This document shows, in pieces, positions 29,275 to 53,543 of a stretch of DNA of 64,000 nucleotides. Position numbers and translations under genes: made by a program. Origin of the DNA: an uncultured Microbacteriaceae bacterium. Its GTDB lineage: Bacteria; Actinomycetota; Actinomycetes; Actinomycetales; Microbacteriaceae. The stretch covers positions 74,895-138,894 of the forward strand of contig CAIOLM010000018.1 in the NCBI GenBank assembly GCA_903859205.1, given 5' to 3'. Every line of letters begins with the position of its first letter. Position 1 is the stretch's first letter. The notes beneath the pieces are model-generated. The model saw nothing but the letters and a program-made list of their open reading frames with translations, made no database searches and was not told the origin of the DNA.

Positions 29275-29351
29275 GCTGTTGTCCTCGCGTCGGAAAGTGG
29301 TGTGAGAAGCTCATTATCGCAGGGGCTCTTAACAGACCCTAGACCAAAATT

Positions 29352-29367
29352 AGTATTGTTATATACT
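29352..29367. promoter_or_regulatory. Inverted repeat overlapping a -10 element
   Basis: AGTAT-TGTTAT-ATACT is a perfect 5-bp inverted repeat whose right half contains TATACT, a good -10, 58 bp before the amidohydrolase ATG. No convincing -35 is present, suggesting activator dependence. TGTTATA recurs upstream of other catabolic genes in the window. A small stem, GGGTG/CACCC (29390-29404), sits just before the ribosome site. Confidence 0.5.
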
Positions 29368-29424
29368 TAGGCTCAGACAGTCAGCCGTGGGGTGTATTTC
29401 ACCCGGCGAGAGGGTAGGAAAGCA

Positions 29425-34607: not shown

Positions 34608-35783
34608 TTACCAGAGCCCCGCGAGGTGCGCGATGCGCAATCCGGTGTGCAGGTCTCGACGAATTTCACCATCGGCCAGATTGAGTTCGGTGACTTCGCG
34701 GATCTTGTCGAGGCGGTAGTAGAACGTGCTTCGGTGAATATGCAGATTCTTGGCTGTTGCCTGAGCGTCACCACCAAAATCGAGGTACGCGTTCAGGGTC
34801 TGGGCCAAGTCAATGCCCGACTGGGCTTCAAGGATCTGCGCAACACCAGCTGGAAGATCGGCCATGGTGATCTGGTCGAGCGGTAGTTGCAGTAGTAGCC
34901 GGTCGAGCCCGAGGTTATTCCAGTCAGCCAGGTGTCCAGAGCGCGCTCTATCCCGACGCAGCGACTCGAGGGCAATCGCTCCTTCACGGTGGGATGAGGC
35001 GAGATCAGACAACGAAGGTTTTGATCCGCCCATTCCTCCGACTGTGTCGCCGGTGGATAAGCCAGCCAGCGCCGCGGAGACTTTCTTGTGATTTACCGCT
35101 CCTGCCAGAACGACAATGCCCGCATCCTCAGTCGTAACGCCAAATGACTGGAAGGGGGTAGCCCGAATGACCGCCCGGGTTGCTTCTTCGATTTCGAGGG
35201 CGATCAGCGCCGGGTCGCCGTGCGATCGTGATCGCGCGTGAAGAACAAGAACTCGATACTCGGATGACGCGGGAAGCAGACGCAAAGCCGTGATCGATTC
35301 GGCGCCACGGGTTCGCGTCTTGGGGCTGCCCGAAAGCACGTCGGCCATCACGCTCTGTCGAAGATCGACTTCGTCTTCGTCGGCAATTGTTCGCACGGCA
35401 ACCAGCGGAGCAATGCGTGCCGCTGCAGCATCCAATGCCCGGGAGAATTCTTTGCTGAGGTCGCCGATTGACGAGGCACCTGGCTCAGAGAAGGTCAGGA
35501 AGCCGTACAGCAGATTCTTGTATCTCAGCGGCATCACAACTCGGGCTGGCACATCGTCGTGAGCGGCTAAGAGAACGGGAGTCTCGGAGGAGCGCACCTT
35601 CGATGCGGCAATCATTTCGGCTGCCTGCGGAGTGGCCTTTCTGCCCAGGATAACCGCGAGGCGACCGCGGTCAACGGTTTCGTCGTGCTCGCTGAAGGTG
35701 AGAACGCGCAAGTCAACATCAAAGATGACGAGCGCGCGATCGAGCGACTCAGCAGTGAGTTGCACAACCTCATGCAGGTCCAC
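34608..35783 (-). CDS. PucR/CdaR-family transcription regulator
   Basis: This 391-residue regulator has an N-terminal sensory region (GAF-like, residues 1-130), a central GGDEF-like/CdaR domain and a C-terminal PucR HTH with the diagnostic LNAYLDFGGDAQATAKNL followed by HRSTFYYRLDKIREV. PucR-type proteins activate catabolic operons in response to purine, sugar-acid or aromatic ligands. GTG 35783 follows GAGAGGAG at ideal spacing. It sits between the ThDP/ALDH operon (same strand) and a divergent vanillin-dehydrogenase-like ALDH, and probably regulates one or both. Confidence 0.88.
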   Translation of the reverse strand: MDLHEVVQLTAESLDRALVIFDVDLRVLTFSEHDETVDRGRLAVILGRKATPQAAEMIAASKVRSSETPVLLAAHDDVPARVVMPLRYKNLLYGFLTFSEPGASSIGDLSKEFSRALDAAAARIAPLVAVRTIADEDEVDLRQSVMADVLSGSPKTRTRGAESITALRLLPASSEYRVLVLHARSRSHGDPALIALEIEEATRAVIRATPFQSFGVTTEDAGIVVLAGAVNHKKVSAALAGLSTGDTVGGMGGSKPSLSDLASSHREGAIALESLRRDRARSGHLADWNNLGLDRLLLQLPLDQITMADLPAGVAQILEAQSGIDLAQTLNAYLDFGGDAQATAKNLHIHRSTFYYRLDKIREVTELNLADGEIRRDLHTGLRIAHLAGLW

Positions 35784-42212: not shown

Positions 42213-43265
42213 ATGGGCGTGAGTTCGCAATTTAGCCTGCAGGGCAAGCGGCGTACGTCGCTGCGGCAACTGGTTAAAACGATTATTGCCACGGTAAGTG
42301 CGTGGTTCGTTGCGTTGCTCATATTTCCGCACGAGCGACCCATTTTCGCTGCCATTGCCGCGATCATCATCATTCAGCCGAGCGTCAACCAATCTCTGGG
42401 CAAGGCATTCGAGCGCAGCACGGGTGTCTTCATTGGTGTTGGTCTCGCCTCCGTGGCGACCATCATCTTTGGTCTTCAGCCGTGGCTGGTGCTCGTTGCG
42501 ATGGTGATGGCGTTCGTCAGTGGATGGGTCTTGAAGTTCACGTCGACCACGGCCAGTCAGATCGCGATCAGCTCGATGCTGGTGCTGGCACTCGGCGCCG
42601 TCACCCCAGAACGAGCACTCAGCCGCATTGCAGAGACTCTGATCGGTGCCTGCATAGCTCTGATTGTGAACATGGCGGTCTCACCACCCATTCCAGTGAA
42701 ACCAGCTCGCGAGGCCATTGGCCAACTCGGTTTGCATATCGCAGCCATTTTTGAAGACATCGGTAGTGTTTTGCGTCGCAGCACGAGTGACGTGGTTCTC
42801 GAAGACATCTATGCACGTGCTCGAGCATTGCGTTTTGAATACAGCGAGGTTGAGGCCAAGCTCACCCGAGCACACGAGGCGTTGCGGTTCAACCTGCTCA
42901 AGGGAAAGCATCAACCCGAATTGGATGCGCAAGCCAAAACTTTGTTGCAGCTGTCGATTCTCTCAACCCGAGTTGTTGGTGTGGCTCGAGGAGTTCGTGA
43001 TCACTACGATCAGTCCGTGATTGACGAGCCAGGAATTTCAGACATCGCATTGGAATTTATCCGAGCCGGTCATGACTTGCGCTTGCGTATGCGGGATGCG
43101 GGTCTTGCCGATGATGGCGTTCTTGCTGGACACGATGTTGACCCCGCGCTGACGACACCCATTGAGCTGCCGCGCCCGTCAAGCAAGAACTGGGTGCTGG
43201 TGGGTTTCCTCATGGAGAACCTTCGTCGAATTCGTGACGAAGTAGCTGGCACGTCTTCCGACTAA
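42213..43265 (+). CDS. FUSC / aromatic-acid-exporter-like membrane protein
   Basis: This 350-residue protein has five or six N-terminal hydrophobic helices (TIIATVSAWFVALLIF, IFAAIAAIIIIQPSV, GVFIGVGLASVATIIF and others to about residue 150), then a soluble helical domain. This is the half-size architecture of FUSC/ArAE exporters, which elsewhere extrude hydroxybenzoates. ATG 42213 or GTG 42219; TAATAC at 42203-42208 suits a leaderless start. It ends the LigJ-RraA-monooxygenase run and may relieve toxicity of aromatic acids. Confidence 0.82.
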   Translation: MGVSSQFSLQGKRRTSLRQLVKTIIATVSAWFVALLIFPHERPIFAAIAAIIIIQPSVNQSLGKAFERSTGVFIGVGLASVATIIFGLQPWLVLVAMVMAFVSGWVLKFTSTTASQIAISSMLVLALGAVTPERALSRIAETLIGACIALIVNMAVSPPIPVKPAREAIGQLGLHIAAIFEDIGSVLRRSTSDVVLEDIYARARALRFEYSEVEAKLTRAHEALRFNLLKGKHQPELDAQAKTLLQLSILSTRVVGVARGVRDHYDQSVIDEPGISDIALEFIRAGHDLRLRMRDAGLADDGVLAGHDVDPALTTPIELPRPSSKNWVLVGFLMENLRRIRDEVAGTSSD

Positions 43266-43342: not shown

Positions 43343-43385
43343 TTGGAAAATGTATAACAACTCAATAACATTCAAACTGTTATAT
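43343..43385 (+). promoter_or_regulatory. Promoter and repeated half-sites before the ABC operon
   Basis: TTGGAA (43343-43348) and TAACAT (43366-43371) are 17 bp apart. Overlapping them are half-sites TATAACA (43353-43359), AATAACA (43364-43370, one helical turn later) and an inverted TGTTATAT (43378-43385). The arrangement looks like an operator for a multimeric regulator at the promoter of the ABC importer operon. Confidence 0.5.
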
Positions 43386-43396
43386 GTTTTACATAT

Positions 43397-43550
43397 TGTC
43401 TTTCGAGCAGTCGAAAGACAGTATGGCTCTTAGTAGGGCAGTTGACTACTAACGAAGTCCGCATCGGCGGGGCAAAACGCTCAACTCGCAATGTAGCGAG
43501 ATGGGCGGGTCGTCTTTTCCGGGGCGACAAGTGACCTGAGTTATCTCGGG
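43397..43550 (+). ncRNA. Hairpin-rich 5' leader, candidate cis-regulatory RNA
   Basis: Most of the 349-bp gap before the binding-protein gene is explained here. Five stems lie in order. 43397-43420: TGTCTTTCGA/TCGAAAGACA, loop GCAG. 43430-43452: TTAGTAG/CTACTAA. 43485-43500: CTCGC/GCGAG. 43509-43528: GTCGTC/GGCGAC with one G-U. 43535-43550: CCTGAG/CTCGGG, loop TTAT. No known riboswitch class is recognised. Double-strand operators are an alternative for the first two repeats. Confidence 0.5.
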
Positions 43551-43614
43551 CCGCTGGCTTCACAACCAAGATGCTCGGGTAGTTCACCTAACCGACGGAA
43601 AGAAAAAGGATCAT

Positions 43615-44850
43615 ATGAAAAAGTCAGTGCAAAGAGGCCTGGCTGTAGTAGCAACGGTTGGTTTGGCCGTAGCTCTCGCAGCTTGTTCCACCCCTAAGCC
43701 AGTAGCAACCGGTTCTGAGTTGCACATCTGGACCATGTTCCCCGTTACCCCGATGGCTGACGTTTCGCAGGTCGGTGCTGGTGTTAAAGCCGGCGCTGCT
43801 GCAATCAACGCAGCTGGTGGTCTCGGCAAGGGAAACCACAAGATCGTTGTCAAGGAGTGCAAGACCGACTTCTCGCCCCAGAGCGAAATTCAGTGTGCAC
43901 AGCAGGCTGCTGACGACACGCTTTCAATCGCTTTCGTAAGCCCGCTCCAGATCTCCGGTGGAGACGCAGTTGATAAGGTAGCTCAGGATGCTGGTCTGCC
44001 CGTTATCAACTCGAACCCCAACACCCCCGGTGCTCTTCAGAGCCCCGTTCAGTTCCCCATCGCGCAAGACGTTTTCAACATCGCGATGTGTACTGTCATG
44101 GGTGCTAAGGCAACCGGTGCAAAGAGCGTTGCATACGGCATCGTTACCAACCCCGGTACCGTTGCTTCGGCAGACCGCGCAGCTGCACTTGCTGGCAAGA
44201 ACGGCGTAACCAACCTCGGAATCGTTCAGGCTCCTCTGTCGACCACCGACATCGCTCCCTTCCTGCAGCAGGCTGTTGACCTGAAGCCTGAGCTTCTCGT
44301 CGCGTCGCTTTCGCCCATGCTAATGGCCGGATGGCTCTCGGGCATTCCGAACAGTGGCTACAAGGGTGCTTCGTGTGTCACCGATGAGCTCGCTCCTTAC
44401 CAGGTTCTCGTTGGTCTGGGCGCAGCAGCTAAGGACCTCTACATGGTCGGCTCGTACCCCGAGACCACCTGGGACTACCCGCTGCTGAAGCAGTTCAACG
44501 CTGACGCTAAGGCAGAGGCAGCTACGGGCGACAAGGCAGCAAGCACCGCTCCGGGTAACAACCCTCAGAGCATCCTTCGTGGATGGCTTGGAACCTACGT
44601 TCTGCAGCAGGCAGTGGCCAACGTTGATGGTGACCTCACCCGCGCATCGTTGCTCGCCGCTCTGAACAAGACCACGGTCAACTTCGGTGAGGGTAACCCC
44701 ATCGTTCCGATCGACTTCTCGAAGCCGAACCCTGACCCGACGATCGCTCGCCTGTTCAACACGAGCACGATCCTCAAGGTCTGGAACGTGGACACCAAGT
44801 CCATCGACAAGTCCAAGGTCGAGCCCATGGATGCGAGCCAGCTCAAGTAA
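43615..44850 (+). CDS. ABC importer substrate-binding lipoprotein (LivJ-like)
   Basis: This 411-residue periplasmic-binding-protein-like lipoprotein has an n-region MKKSVQR, a hydrophobic core and lipobox ALAAC, giving lipidated Cys24. The mature part is the two-lobe Leu/Ile/Val-binding fold (for example VKAGAAAINAAGGLGKG near residue 60). Such proteins also bind aromatic acids in catabolic clusters. ATG 43615 follows AAGAAAAAGG. It begins the importer operon and is separated from the permease fusion by a strong hairpin, which would favour excess binding protein. Confidence 0.92.
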   Translation: MKKSVQRGLAVVATVGLAVALAACSTPKPVATGSELHIWTMFPVTPMADVSQVGAGVKAGAAAINAAGGLGKGNHKIVVKECKTDFSPQSEIQCAQQAADDTLSIAFVSPLQISGGDAVDKVAQDAGLPVINSNPNTPGALQSPVQFPIAQDVFNIAMCTVMGAKATGAKSVAYGIVTNPGTVASADRAAALAGKNGVTNLGIVQAPLSTTDIAPFLQQAVDLKPELLVASLSPMLMAGWLSGIPNSGYKGASCVTDELAPYQVLVGLGAAAKDLYMVGSYPETTWDYPLLKQFNADAKAEAATGDKAASTAPGNNPQSILRGWLGTYVLQQAVANVDGDLTRASLLAALNKTTVNFGEGNPIVPIDFSKPNPDPTIARLFNTSTILKVWNVDTKSIDKSKVEPMDASQLK

Positions 44851-44887
44851 CTTGAGCCCTCGCACCATCTAGCAATTCAGCAATAAA

Positions 44888-44924
44888 GTTCGGGGCCGTT
44901 GCAGGCAACTGCACGGCCCCGAAC
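44888..44924 (+). terminator. Intercistronic hairpin / attenuator
   Basis: GTTCGGGGCCGT (44888-44899) pairs perfectly with ACGGCCCCGAAC (44913-44924), with an additional GCA/TGC stem above a bulge. There is no T-run. Located between the binding-protein and permease genes, it probably causes partial termination or protects the upstream mRNA, raising the binding-protein ratio. Confidence 0.7.
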
Positions 44925-44949
44925 TCCTCAACGGAGAGAGAACTCATCA

Positions 44950-47748
44950 ATGATTGACGTAATTCGATACGGCCTCCTCGGCCTCGGACTCGGCGCGATT
45001 TACGTCATGCTCGGGCAGGGCATGCTCCTCATCTACCGCGGCTCGGGCGTCATCAACATCGCCCAAGGCGCATTCGCCATGTTCGGTGCGTACACGTACC
45101 TTCAGCTGCACGCTCCCGAGAGCCTCGACCCCACGATTGAGCCTGGTCACGGCCTGCCCATCTGGCTGTCCATCATTCTTGCGGTCGTCATCACCGCTGT
45201 TATCGGTCTCATCGTTGACCGACTTATTCTTCAAAAGATGAAGAAAGCGTCACCATTGACGCGTCTCATCGCAACCGTCATCGTCCTACTTTTGCTCCAG
45301 GCCATTGCCTCGAAGATTTGGGGTAGTACTGCCCCCTTCGTTGAGCCCATCTTCCCCAACAAGCTCATTGATCTCGGTGGCGGCATCTCCGTTCCGGAAA
45401 CCTACATCTGGCTTCTTGCTGTGGCAATTGTGCTCACCGTTGTCCTCACCATCATCTGGCGTTACACGCGCGTAGGTTGGGTCACCGCAGCTGTGGCTCA
45501 GAACGAACGCGGTGCTGCTGCACTCGGTATTTCGCCCAACTTTGTTTCGACAATGACCTGGATGGTCGGAACCGGCCTTGCCGCACTCGCGGGTATTTTC
45601 GTGACTCCGATCACGCAGGTATCTGTTTCGGGCCTCAGCCTTCTCATCGTTCCGGTGCTGGCCGCACTCGTCTTCGCAGGCTTCAAGAACTACTTCGCTG
45701 TTCTCGGTGCCGGCATGTTCATCGGCGTTGTCCAGACGATCCTCATTCGTTACAACCACGATGTTCAGGAAGCCACGGGCATCGCCGCAATCGCGAACGC
45801 GTTCCCGGTACTCGTTTTGATCATTGTGCTGTGGGCGCGCGGTAGTGCGCTTCCTGTGCGTGGTCAAGCCGGTGAGCGTCTGCCCGATCTGGGTAACGGC
45901 CGCTTCCGCTGGGGTATTGTCATCCCGCTGGTTGTCATTCTTTTGGCGCTCATCTTCACAGTCTTCTCGACAAACAACGTCGTGCTCGGAGCGCTGACTG
46001 TCACCTTCGCGCTGACGATTCTGTTGCTCTCGCTCATCGTCGTCATCGGATACAACGGCCAGGTTTCACTTGCCCAATACGCCATTGCAGGCACGGGTGG
46101 TTTGATCGCTGCTCAGTTGACGGTTCACCTTGGTGCTCCGTTCCTGGTCTCGCTCATCGTCGGTGCGGTGGCCGCATCAGCTGTCGGTGTTCTCTTCGCG
46201 CTTCCCGCGCTTCGTACTCGTGGTGTAAACCTCGCGGTTATCACCCTCGCCGCAGCGTGGGCGGTTTACGACATGGTCTTCACCAACGACAAGTTCGTCG
46301 GTGGCTCGGGTGGTATGCCCGTGGGCATCCCGTCGATTTTCGGGTTCGAAATCGGTGGAAGCGCGCACCCTGAGCGCTATGCAGCCTTCTCGTTGATCAT
46401 CATGGTTCTTGCCATGTTGCTGGTGACCAACGTTCGTAAGGGCCGCATGGGACGAAGCATGATCGCAGTTCGTTCGAACGAGCGAGCAGCTGCCGCTTCC
46501 GGTGTCAATGTGCAGCAGACGAAAATCATGGCATTCGCCATTTCGGGTGCACTGGCTGGTCTCGGTGGAATTCTGCTGACGTACCAGTATGAGCTCGCAG
46601 TATTCACGTACTACGACTCGTTCAACTCACTGTTGGCCGTTGCCTGGATCATCATCGGTGGTGTCGGCTTCGTCGTCGGCGCAATCTTTGCCGCCGTTGG
46701 TGCCCCCGGTGCTCTGTCCTCACTGATCGGTCTCAACTGGGATGGCTTCGTTTCTTGGCTGCCACTCATTGCTGGCGTCGGTTCGCTCGGTGCGGTTATC
46801 TTCAACCCGCACGGTATCGTTCAAGACCTTGCTATGCGCTTCGGCAAGCTCGACAAGAAGATTTCGGCCAACCTTCCCTGGGTCAAGCCGGTCAAGCAGT
46901 ACTCGCTGCCCACCGATGCAATTGAAGTCACGCGGGTTGAGCCGAAGACTCTGACGATCGATCACCTCTCGGTTCGCTACGGCGGCGTTGTCGCTGTGAA
47001 CGACCTCAGCTTTGAGGTCAAACCGGGCCAGGTCATTGGTCTCATCGGTCCCAACGGTGCGGGTAAGACTTCGCTGATGGATGCTGTTACCGGATTCACG
47101 CCTTACTCGGGCAAGGTCTTGATCGATGGCAAGAGCGTCAATGGAAAGCAAGCCCACCAGCGCGCTGACCGCGGTCTGGTTCGTTCTTTCCAGGGTGTTG
47201 AGCTCTTCCCCGAGATGACGGTTCTCGAGAACCTTCAGGTTCCGCAAGACCACCAGGGTGGTTTCGGCGGTCTCGTCGAGCTCATCAAGCCTGCAAAGAC
47301 CAAGCTTCACCCGGTCACCATTGCAGCCGTGCGCGACTTCGGCCTTGAAGATCTGCTCAACCGCACTCCGGATGACATCTCGTTCGGCCAGCGTCGTCTG
47401 GTTGCCATCGCGCGTGCTGTTGCCGCTCGTCCTTCGATTCTTCTGCTGGACGAGCCGGTGGCAGGTCTGAGCGAGCACGAGTCAGAGGAATTCGGACAGC
47501 TGGTTCGCCGTCTCGCCGACAACTGGGGCATGGCTATCTTGGTCATCGAACACGACATGAACTTCGTGATGACCATCTGTGATGAGATCAATGTCATCGA
47601 CTTCGGCACATACGTCACCTCCGGTACCCCACAAGAGGTTCGCGAAAGCCCCGCAGCTATCGCGGCCTACTTGGGCGATGACACCGAAGAGCAGGGTGCT
47701 GATGCTGACGAAGCAGCAGCCAACGAGTCGAAGGGCGTGAAGAACTAA
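44950..47748 (+). CDS. Fused ABC importer: LivH-like + LivM-like permeases + LivG-like ATPase
   Basis: This 932-residue single polypeptide carries three domains that are usually separate. Residues 1-295 are a LivH-type permease (MLGQGMLLIYRGSGVINIAQG). About 315-615 is a LivM-type permease (IGYNGQVSLAQYAIAGTGG). About 660-920 is an ATPase with Walker A GPNGAGKT (700-707), signature SFGQRR (near 810), Walker B ILLLDEP (near 830) and the His switch VIEHDMNF. ATG 44950 follows GGAGAGAG. No frameshift was needed, and linkers are short and in frame. With the downstream LivF-like ATPase it forms a complete branched-chain/aromatic-acid-type importer. Confidence 0.93.
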   Translation: MIDVIRYGLLGLGLGAIYVMLGQGMLLIYRGSGVINIAQGAFAMFGAYTYLQLHAPESLDPTIEPGHGLPIWLSIILAVVITAVIGLIVDRLILQKMKKASPLTRLIATVIVLLLLQAIASKIWGSTAPFVEPIFPNKLIDLGGGISVPETYIWLLAVAIVLTVVLTIIWRYTRVGWVTAAVAQNERGAAALGISPNFVSTMTWMVGTGLAALAGIFVTPITQVSVSGLSLLIVPVLAALVFAGFKNYFAVLGAGMFIGVVQTILIRYNHDVQEATGIAAIANAFPVLVLIIVLWARGSALPVRGQAGERLPDLGNGRFRWGIVIPLVVILLALIFTVFSTNNVVLGALTVTFALTILLLSLIVVIGYNGQVSLAQYAIAGTGGLIAAQLTVHLGAPFLVSLIVGAVAASAVGVLFALPALRTRGVNLAVITLAAAWAVYDMVFTNDKFVGGSGGMPVGIPSIFGFEIGGSAHPERYAAFSLIIMVLAMLLVTNVRKGRMGRSMIAVRSNERAAAASGVNVQQTKIMAFAISGALAGLGGILLTYQYELAVFTYYDSFNSLLAVAWIIIGGVGFVVGAIFAAVGAPGALSSLIGLNWDGFVSWLPLIAGVGSLGAVIFNPHGIVQDLAMRFGKLDKKISANLPWVKPVKQYSLPTDAIEVTRVEPKTLTIDHLSVRYGGVVAVNDLSFEVKPGQVIGLIGPNGAGKTSLMDAVTGFTPYSGKVLIDGKSVNGKQAHQRADRGLVRSFQGVELFPEMTVLENLQVPQDHQGGFGGLVELIKPAKTKLHPVTIAAVRDFGLEDLLNRTPDDISFGQRRLVAIARAVAARPSILLLDEPVAGLSEHESEEFGQLVRRLADNWGMAILVIEHDMNFVMTICDEINVIDFGTYVTSGTPQEVRESPAAIAAYLGDDTEEQGADADEAAANESKGVKN

Positions 47749-48437
47749 TGTCTGAAGTTCTCATCAAAACCACTGATCTCCACTGCGGTTACGGTGGCAT
47801 CGACATCGTCAAGGGCATCAACATCGAGGTTCGAGCCGGAGAGGTCGTTGCTCTCCTGGGAGCAAACGGCGCCGGTAAGACGACGACCATGTTGACACTC
47901 GCAGGCGAGCTCGCCCCCATCAGCGGTGAGGCTTCCGTCCTCGACCTGCCTCGAAACCGCGCTCTGTACAAGCGTGCGCGCAAGGGCCTGTCGTTCGTCA
48001 CTGAAGAGCGCTCGATATTTCCGCACCTCACGACCAAGCAGAACCTTGCTGTCGGTCGCGTGAACATCGAAGAAGCAACCGAGATCTTCCCGGAGCTCGT
48101 TCCGCTGCTTAACCGACGCGCTGGTCTTCTCTCCGGTGGTGAGCAGCAAATGCTGACGCTGAGCCGCGCCATTTCTCGCAGCCCCAAGCTTCTGCTCGCA
48201 GATGAGCTCTCACTGGGTCTTGCTCCCAAGACGGTCGGCCGCTTGCTTCGCGCAGTTCGTGCAGCCGCTGACCAGGGCGTCGGTGCGCTGCTCATCGAAC
48301 AGCACGTCAATCGTGTTCTCGACATTGCCGACCGCGTGTACTTGCTGCACCACGGTGTCATCGAGTTTGAAGGCACTGCCGACGAGGCTCGAGCAAACAT
48401 GGATCGCATCCAGGCCACGTACCTGGCTGCTGGCTAA
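47748..48437 (+). CDS. ABC importer ATPase (LivF-like)
   Basis: This 229-residue second nucleotide-binding subunit has Walker A GANGAGKT (37-44), signature LSGGEQQM near 128, Walker B LLLADELSLG (Asp-Glu retained, with A before D) and a His switch (LIEQHVNRVL). Typical length for LivF is about 235. Its ATG overlaps the fusion gene's stop by one base, ensuring coupled translation with the ATPase domain it pairs with. It should act at the cytoplasmic face of the membrane. Confidence 0.93.
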   Translation: MSEVLIKTTDLHCGYGGIDIVKGINIEVRAGEVVALLGANGAGKTTTMLTLAGELAPISGEASVLDLPRNRALYKRARKGLSFVTEERSIFPHLTTKQNLAVGRVNIEEATEIFPELVPLLNRRAGLLSGGEQQMLTLSRAISRSPKLLLADELSLGLAPKTVGRLLRAVRAAADQGVGALLIEQHVNRVLDIADRVYLLHHGVIEFEGTADEARANMDRIQATYLAAG

Positions 48438-52685: not shown

Positions 52686-52714
52686 ACATATAACCAAATA
52701 ATGATTGCCGTCAA
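52686..52714 (-). promoter_or_regulatory. Promoter of the hydratase/lyase - CoA ligase operon
   Basis: On the minus strand TTGACG (52714-52709) is followed after 16 bp by TATATG (52692-52687), leaving a leader of about 35-40 bases before GTG 52644. The -10 lies in GGTTATATGTTT, similar to the CTGTTATATGTTT before the ABC operon. Confidence 0.5.
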
Positions 52715-52730
52715 CGCGTTGATATATGAG

Positions 52731-53543
52731 TTAGATAAACATCTCTCCGTAGAGGTCGCCTGATTTGGCAGAAAGCGCCGAGTGGGCCCTTTCGAACAGC
52801 TCACGTGCTTTCTCGCCACTCCAGCCGGTGGGCTGCAATTCAGCAGGAAGGTGCGGGTCGCGTTTGCCAAACTCGCGGTAAGAATGGACTAGTTCAATTC
52901 GGTGGCGAAGGGACTGTCGGGGGTCTTCGCACGCCTCTTTATACGTGGGTGTTTTGGCTGTCACCCACGCGACGAATGCCTCATACTCTTGACGCAGCGA
53001 GTTCATGTCCCAGCATCGTTCAACCAGATTGCGGTCAGCTTCGAGGCCCGTGGAGCGTGTCGTAAGCAGTGTGAGCTTGGCTGATTTCAAATGCGATGTC
53101 GCTGCGGCGATGTCGTCGAGCTGGCCCTGAGGCCGAATCCAGGTCGCCGGTGCCAGCGGGCCAAACCCTAACCACATGAGCTGCTTTCGCAATTCATCAC
53201 GTGTTTGTCGGTCGCTCTCGGGCACGGTGTAAATCACCATCGACCAGTTACCACTCCATGGCGCAACCGAAGCTTGGTGCATGCGCTGCGCTGCCTCGTG
53301 GATGTTCTCAACGGCTGTTGAACTGATCGTGTAGATCGACTCACGGCCCTCGTGTCTTACATCGAACCAACCGCGCTCACGAAGGCGAGCAAGCGTCACG
53401 CGCATGGTGGGGCCGGGAATGCCCAGCTCTTCACCAAGCTCAACGAGCGACTTGAGACGCAGTGTCCGGCCACCGCTTCGTCGAATGTCTCCGAGCAGGT
53501 CCAAGACCAGCGCACCGGGTCGCGTTGTCATGTCTGTGCTCAC
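52731..53543 (-). CDS. PaaX-family transcription regulator
   Basis: This 270-residue regulator has an N-terminal winged helix (GDIRRSGGRTLRLKSLVELG and GIPGPTMRVTLARLRERGWF, residues 18-60) and a C-terminal PaaX domain. PaaX represses phenylacetate genes by sensing an aryl-CoA; this paralogue sits between the hydroxycinnamoyl-CoA genes and a divergent acyl-CoA dehydrogenase operon, so a hydroxycinnamoyl-CoA or related thioester may be its effector. GTG 53543 has no ribosome site but TAGTAT six bases upstream, suggesting a leaderless transcript; ATG 53531 is the alternative. Confidence 0.85.
   Translation of the reverse strand: MSTDMTTRPGALVLDLLGDIRRSGGRTLRLKSLVELGEELGIPGPTMRVTLARLRERGWFDVRHEGRESIYTISSTAVENIHEAAQRMHQASVAPWSGNWSMVIYTVPESDRQTRDELRKQLMWLGFGPLAPATWIRPQGQLDDIAAATSHLKSAKLTLLTTRSTGLEADRNLVERCWDMNSLRQEYEAFVAWVTAKTPTYKEACEDPRQSLRHRIELVHSYREFGKRDPHLPAELQPTGWSGEKARELFERAHSALSAKSGDLYGEMFI

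Follow-up and report, generated by a model that had tools for sequence, protein, structure and literature searches.

The sequence at 43386-43614 (+ strand) of the window, which is the whole 64,000-nucleotide stretch of DNA analysed here, lies upstream of a gene encoding a LivJ-like lipoprotein and on balance appears to be an undescribed structured RNA leader at the 5′ end of an operon, with a cis-regulatory role in that operon. The leader proper comprises approximately 223 nt (43392-43614). Comparison with a second species of the same genus shows that its predicted RNA structure is conserved, best on the + strand, and linked to the same operon in both species. That a complex fold has been kept through matched base changes in a related species argues that this is probably a real regulatory RNA. 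Its existence as a genus-restricted structured leader is considered likely, regulation of the operon is probable by analogy, and ligand binding by the RNA is possible; two sequences do not separate a ligand-binding element from a protein-binding or stability element.

Gene context of the leader

The window derives from a genome of 1.70 Mb in 44 contigs. The first gene of the operon encodes a LivJ-like substrate-binding protein (43615-44850, +; Peripla_BP_6, E 2.3e-26) that is 90% identical in the second species, was recognised as a lipoprotein by reading its LAAC lipobox, and had no match among PDB chains by phmmer at E 0.001. It is followed by a fused LivH-LivM-LivG protein (44944-47748, +), a 934-aa frame with BPD_transp_2 in two stretches plus ABC_tran, for which the start at 44944 was chosen here (the open reading frame list begins at a TTG at 44899), and then by a LivF-like ATPase (47748-48437, +), taken from the same list and named by reading its translation. 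In the second species a 932-aa open reading frame occupies the position matching the fused gene (44899-47748). A very stable hairpin of 17 pairs (44887-44925, z -6.7) lies between livJ and the permease gene; only its last base is changed in the second species, and it is likely to be an intercistronic stability or differential-expression element.

Upstream, on the same strand, are genes for an aldehyde dehydrogenase, an amidohydrolase, three RraA/LigK-type proteins, an FAD hydroxylase and an aromatic-acid-exporter-like membrane protein, the last of which ends at 43265, leaving 349 bases to the lipoprotein start. One of the three RraA/LigK-type proteins scores above the NCBI cut-off for 4-carboxy-4-hydroxy-2-oxoadipate aldolase, and the C-terminal domain of the FAD hydroxylase is that of an aromatic-ring hydroxylase. 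Given the LigK-type aldolase, the FAD hydroxylase and the exporter-like gene just upstream, import of aromatic compounds is plausible, and judged by this gene context it is probably the function of the operon (LivJ-like, fused LivHMG and LivF-like). The designation of aromatic-acid importer in the preliminary description is plausible in the light of these neighbouring catabolic-type genes. A comparable arrangement is CouPSTU of Rhodopseudomonas, where a LivK-family binding protein is clustered with aromatic catabolism genes (PMC3610893); the likeness concerns the importer itself and not the leader, and the word 'riboswitch' is absent from the text consulted. Genes for PucR-type and PaaX-type regulators (34608-35783 and 52731-53543) flank the aromatic and importer genes and are candidates for controlling the promoter block described below.

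Conservation, folding and paired base changes in two species

In the second species (G001) the leader is found with 77% identity across 299 bases of the query. It sits there between the same pair of genes, ahead of the orthologous lipoprotein gene, within a collinear region that spans 27063-63998 of the window. A public metagenome-assembled actinobacterial contig (CANFSP010000002.1) also carries the leader; it equals G001 in the aligned part, so only two independent leader sequences are available. Identity between the two species is 51% (43/84) from the end of the upstream gene to 43349, 90% (38/42) in the promoter-like block (43350-43391) and 74% (164/223) in the leader (43392-43614); the two flanking genes are 42% and 66% identical at their third codon positions. 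The leader is therefore held more tightly than the upstream spacer and third codon positions. Equal conservation is seen in other intergenic stretches (83% at 44851-44943, the stretch holding the stable hairpin of 17 pairs; 80% at 52690-52730; 72% at 29275-29391), and by itself it is therefore no proof.

The stems reported in the preliminary description are present in the sequence. The minimum free energy (MFE) calculated for 43386-43614, -88 kcal/mol, compares with a mean of -65.4 for shuffled sequences (z -5.21), and none of 200 shuffles was as good; the leader of the second species gives z -5.17, and folding of the opposite strand is weaker (z -3.83, with 1/200 shuffles as good). In a coarser run with 20 shuffles per segment on both strands, 10 of 400 window segments reached the leader's z of -4.44 or lower, one of which (43201, +) overlaps the leader, and an energy as low as the leader's was found in 102 of 400. 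Since ten of these 400 segments reach its z, folding energy alone is not decisive.

Paired base changes supply the strong evidence. Structures predicted from one species were scored on the other, in both directions. The 73 pairs of the window MFE fold, transferred to G001, comprised 43 that were the same, 11 with a one-sided change, 6 compensatory and 13 broken, where permutation gave an expectation of 23 broken and 2.4 compensatory. The 71 pairs of the G001 MFE fold, transferred to the window, comprised 47, 9, 8 and 7, respectively, against an expectation of 21.8 broken and 2.2 compensatory. As the two-way mean, 0.64 of changed pairs were kept in the leader vs 0.28 (sd 0.063) in a background of 310 collinear segments (155 places, both strands; BLAST alignments for the background, MAFFT for the leader). 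None of the 310 segments reached 0.64, and of the three with the highest values two overlap the leader. Counted by themselves, compensatory changes gave a two-way figure of 7.0 for the leader; in the background the mean was 1.8 (sd 1.3) and the highest value 6.5, reached by four of the 310 segments, and the leader exceeds all 310 narrowly. Its reverse strand keeps approximately 0.54 of changed pairs, which is below the + strand and yet high against the background, as expected of a complement. The consensus score of the two-sequence alignment was -156, compared with -102 ± 6 after 100 column shuffles. The preliminary description had named compensatory changes in the stems as support for an RNA structure, and paired changes beyond background, which mark a conserved structured cis-leader, are what this comparison of just two sequences yields.

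No known family accounts for the structure. Rfam 15 at the gathering cut-off found three tRNAs in the whole window and no family at the leader, and when the two leader regions were scanned permissively, one and four matches appeared below threshold, with no family common to both. The earlier reading, that no recognisable riboswitch class is present, agrees with the Rfam 15 result, and the absence of a match together with the compensatory changes in the second species upholds its suggestion of an undescribed structured leader. The livK RNA motif (RF01744) resembles the leader in being a candidate cis-regulatory RNA whose name comes from a gene of this transporter type, and PMC2864571 lists it, for Pseudomonadales, as probable both as an RNA and as a cis-regulator; it differs in having 84 positions vs approximately 223 nt. 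It matched neither leader, and had no match above the cut-off in the three genus genomes (3/3), where its single sub-cut-off match (16.2 bits, E 6.1) lies on a different contig from the leader.

A combined model with stems P1 to P6 has 61 pairs, 40 of them unchanged, 10 one-sided, 8 compensatory and 3 broken, a tally that is descriptive because the model was chosen with both sequences in view. P1, the 5′ hairpin (43392-43425), has 11 pairs (8 same, 2 one-sided, 1 compensatory, none broken) and a loop that is not conserved (5/12 identical). P2 (43430-43452) has 7 pairs (6 same, 1 compensatory, none broken) and a loop, GGCAnnTGA, with 7/9 bases identical. P3 (43454-43459 / 43556-43561; 6 pairs, 4 same, 2 one-sided, none broken) closes a three-way junction with the long arm P4 (43460-43526) and the hairpin P5 (43530-43555). 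P4 has 21 pairs (13 same, 3 one-sided, 4 compensatory, 1 broken), three of the four compensatory pairs falling in its apical hairpin (43478-43507), which has the hexaloop AAYGUA; P5 has 9 (5 same, 1 one-sided, 2 compensatory, 1 broken). A 16-nt tract, CTTCACAACCAAGATG (43558-43573), is identical in both species, its first four bases forming the 3′ side of P3 and the remainder being unpaired in the model. Ahead of the ribosome-binding site is a weak hairpin, P6 (43575-43595), with 7 pairs (4 same, 2 one-sided, 0 compensatory, 1 broken) and a loop that is not conserved.

This architecture departs in part from the five consecutive hairpins of the preliminary description. The first stem is present as a hairpin, with 15 pairs in the MFE fold and not the 10 reported, and the hairpin with a UUAU loop is present as P5, its loop being unconserved (1/6 columns identical in the second species). 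The apical hairpin at 43478-43507 is common to both readings, and the middle part of the earlier one is, on modest evidence, probably wrong. With this shared hairpin set aside, the two separate hairpins (43458-43471 and 43509-43528) have 13 pairs, 7 of them the same, 3 one-sided, 0 compensatory and 3 broken, and the alternative, P3 with lower and middle P4, has 16 (9 same, 5 one-sided, 1 compensatory, 1 broken). The second species is matched somewhat less well by the separate hairpins than by a long arm in a three-way junction, and the long arm is modestly favoured on this alignment; the two folds could also alternate. The MFE folds of the two species differ in the middle region, and as long as only two independent sequences inform it, the fold is provisional in its details.

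In a 58-pair version that omits the broken pairs, 90/116 paired columns are identical vs 53/82 unpaired, so exposed bases overall are not better kept than stems. Several unpaired stretches are nonetheless conserved (P4 internal loop 5/6, hexaloop AAYGUA 5/6, junction ACA 3/3, ACAACCAAGAUGN 12/13), although these were picked post hoc, since unpaired columns as a whole are less conserved. The stems have changed pairwise while the P2 loop, AAYGUA, the junction ACA and ACAACCAAGAUG stayed nearly fixed, which suggests that the shape of the RNA and its exposed bases may be recognised by some partner. Inspection by eye found no pseudoknot of the 3′ strand, or pairing of it to the Shine-Dalgarno sequence, in a register kept in both species.

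Promoter-like block, 3′ end and candidate modes of control

The promoter-like block (43350-43391, +) gave no sigma-70 site in a consensus scan; by reading, TATATG at 43381-43386 is a possible -10 element, which would place the transcription start near 43391-43394. The block and its 3′ edge hold two dyads, ATAACA-N7-TGTTAT at 43365-43383 and ATATGT-TTT-ACATAT at 43382-43396. Each occurs once in the window (0.3 occurrences of the second are expected by chance) and both are identical in the two species, so a DNA-binding repressor may act too, with the dyads as possible regulator sites. A reading in which control is at the DNA level only, the inverted repeats being operator sites and the remainder spacer, could draw on these dyads and on P1 being itself a dyad; it leaves the paired changes in P2-P5 and the + strand preference unexplained and is very improbable, and DNA-level control may instead act additionally, at the promoter block.

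For the structured leader RNA favoured here, transcription would start just before P1, and the RNA would fold into P1, P2, the three-way junction of P3, P4 and P5, the conserved single strand and P6, before running into an open ribosome-binding site. A sequence scan found no terminator-like site within the leader, and an intrinsic terminator was set aside on this result. The Shine-Dalgarno sequence of the lipoprotein gene, AAGGA (43606-43610, by reading), has its GGA unpaired at a probability of at least 0.80 in the window fold and at least 0.92 in that of the second species, where the flanking bases pair in a small hairpin. As the GGA is mostly unpaired in both predicted folds, the default state looks ON, and the open Shine-Dalgarno sequence reveals no OFF state in the folds computed. 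Control would presumably fall on translation initiation or mRNA decay and not on an intrinsic terminator; it could act via translation initiation, decay or Rho, with a ligand, a protein or an antisense RNA as the effector.

The only leader open reading frame with start and stop common to both species is a possible three-codon frame, ATG-NTC-GGN-stop (43571-43582, +), reading MLG* in the window and MIG* in the second species, with TAG as the stop in one and TGA in the other and no clear Shine-Dalgarno sequence; it may be due to chance. A longer leader peptide was discarded, given that four start codons are common to both species and their stops differ.

The ligand-binding leader proposed in the preliminary description would be a riboswitch whose junction binds an aromatic acid or catabolite and alters translation of the importer. 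The junction model with some conserved unpaired stretches and the adjoining genes of aromatic catabolism type are consistent with it, but the folds computed have neither a terminator-like site nor sequestration of the Shine-Dalgarno sequence, no Rfam family matches and a single gene context is available, which makes this mode rather unlikely. A bolder version posits a new riboswitch class in which the three-way junction and the ACAACCAAGAUG strand bind an aromatic acid from lignin, or the CoA ester of such an acid; it would control translation of a high-affinity aromatic importer, possibly via the three-codon frame at 43571-43582, and is decidedly speculative. If the leader does sense a ligand, it would tie RNA-based control to the way in which small-genome actinobacteria take up aromatics of plant origin. 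Should it sense none, it is still a good candidate structured leader that Rfam families do not match, and it offers defined stems and loops as targets for mutation.

Stabilisers of mRNA typically have a stable 5′-terminal hairpin. The leader's own stable 5′-terminal hairpin fits this pattern, and the second strong hairpin after livJ (44887-44925) is consistent with segmental stabilisation, so the folded 5′ end might be a passive or constitutive element that protects the mRNA of an abundant binding protein, or sets its decay or translation, without sensing. However, conservation of loop and junction bases is not required of a stabiliser, yet several such stretches are kept here, and this passive role is judged rather unlikely.

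The leader might also be the RNA target of an ANTAR antiterminator protein. In PMC8164766, such targets are described as two hairpins with hexaloops, A1 and G4, joined by a linker of 2-25 nt, and are reported in transporter mRNAs of actinobacteria. The apical hairpin of P4 has a hexaloop with A1 and G4 (AAYGUA) in both species, all three genus genomes (3/3) encode an ANTAR domain that scores above the cut-off, and the window has a second A1/G4 candidate at 43435, of five pairs with no G-C. This second candidate is confined to the window, competes with P2, and lies 39 nt from the first stem vs the published linker of 2-25 nt, so that the two species share no second hairpin of this type, and the leader fails the dual-hexaloop definition as given there. 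The one ANTAR gene found in the window's genome, moreover, has an equally strong counterpart in a species without the lipoprotein, and ANTAR control of the leader is highly unlikely. As regards ANTAR matches themselves, the window's genome gave a single one; in G001 two additional ANTAR-like matches lie next to each other, of which one exceeds the cut-off and the other falls below it.

Distribution of the leader and of the lipoprotein gene

A covariance model (R1) was built from the two leader sequences (window and G001). It scored strongly only at the two known places (201 and 194 bits), with reverse-strand shadows falling inside the same two places, and gave strong matches in 2/398 family genomes at E 1. 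At E 0.05 it matched 1/346 genomes of a phylum draw and 1/337 of an order draw, the own genome in each case; these draws overlap the family draw and were searched with stricter filters. No strong leader match outside the genus was thus found in overlapping draws of 398, 346 and 337 genomes. Weak matches (14.5-20.8 bits, per-genome E 0.03-0.99) occurred in 11 other family genomes of the 398, and tblastn of four window proteins against these loci (approximately 3 kb each) found none of them. With laxer filters at E 1, one of ten relatives matched (E 0.58).

DNA similarity searches agree with this range. Among 99 genomes including the own genome, 42 matched at E ≤1, and the matches in the own genome and G001 were real; for the other 40, the matches listed were pieces of at most 40 bases with E 0.016 or worse. 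Plasmids and phages, searched at a sensitivity for distant matches, returned only 36-base pieces (E 0.2 and 0.9), and viral contigs scanned for patterns of two conserved leader stretches gave 0 and 0 matches. Neither the leader nor the lipoprotein was found in G002, the third genome of the genus, for which a completeness of 94% is listed. The leader has been seen in two species of one genus and is likely genus-restricted; this narrow range, with two genomes found to carry it, illustrates how such RNAs get missed.

Orthologues of the LivJ-like lipoprotein are similarly rare. At E 1e-15 matches were found in 3/398 family genomes, the third being only 24% identical; its genome, the sole one in the family outside the genus at this threshold, had no R1 match at E 1. 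The phylum draw (396 genomes, E 1e-20) returned the own genome only, viral contigs returned none, genome contigs gave one relative, which was G001 again, and plasmids gave one match, 29% identical over 51% of the query. The rarity of the lipoprotein (3/398 in the family, 1/396 in the phylum) parallels that of the leader.
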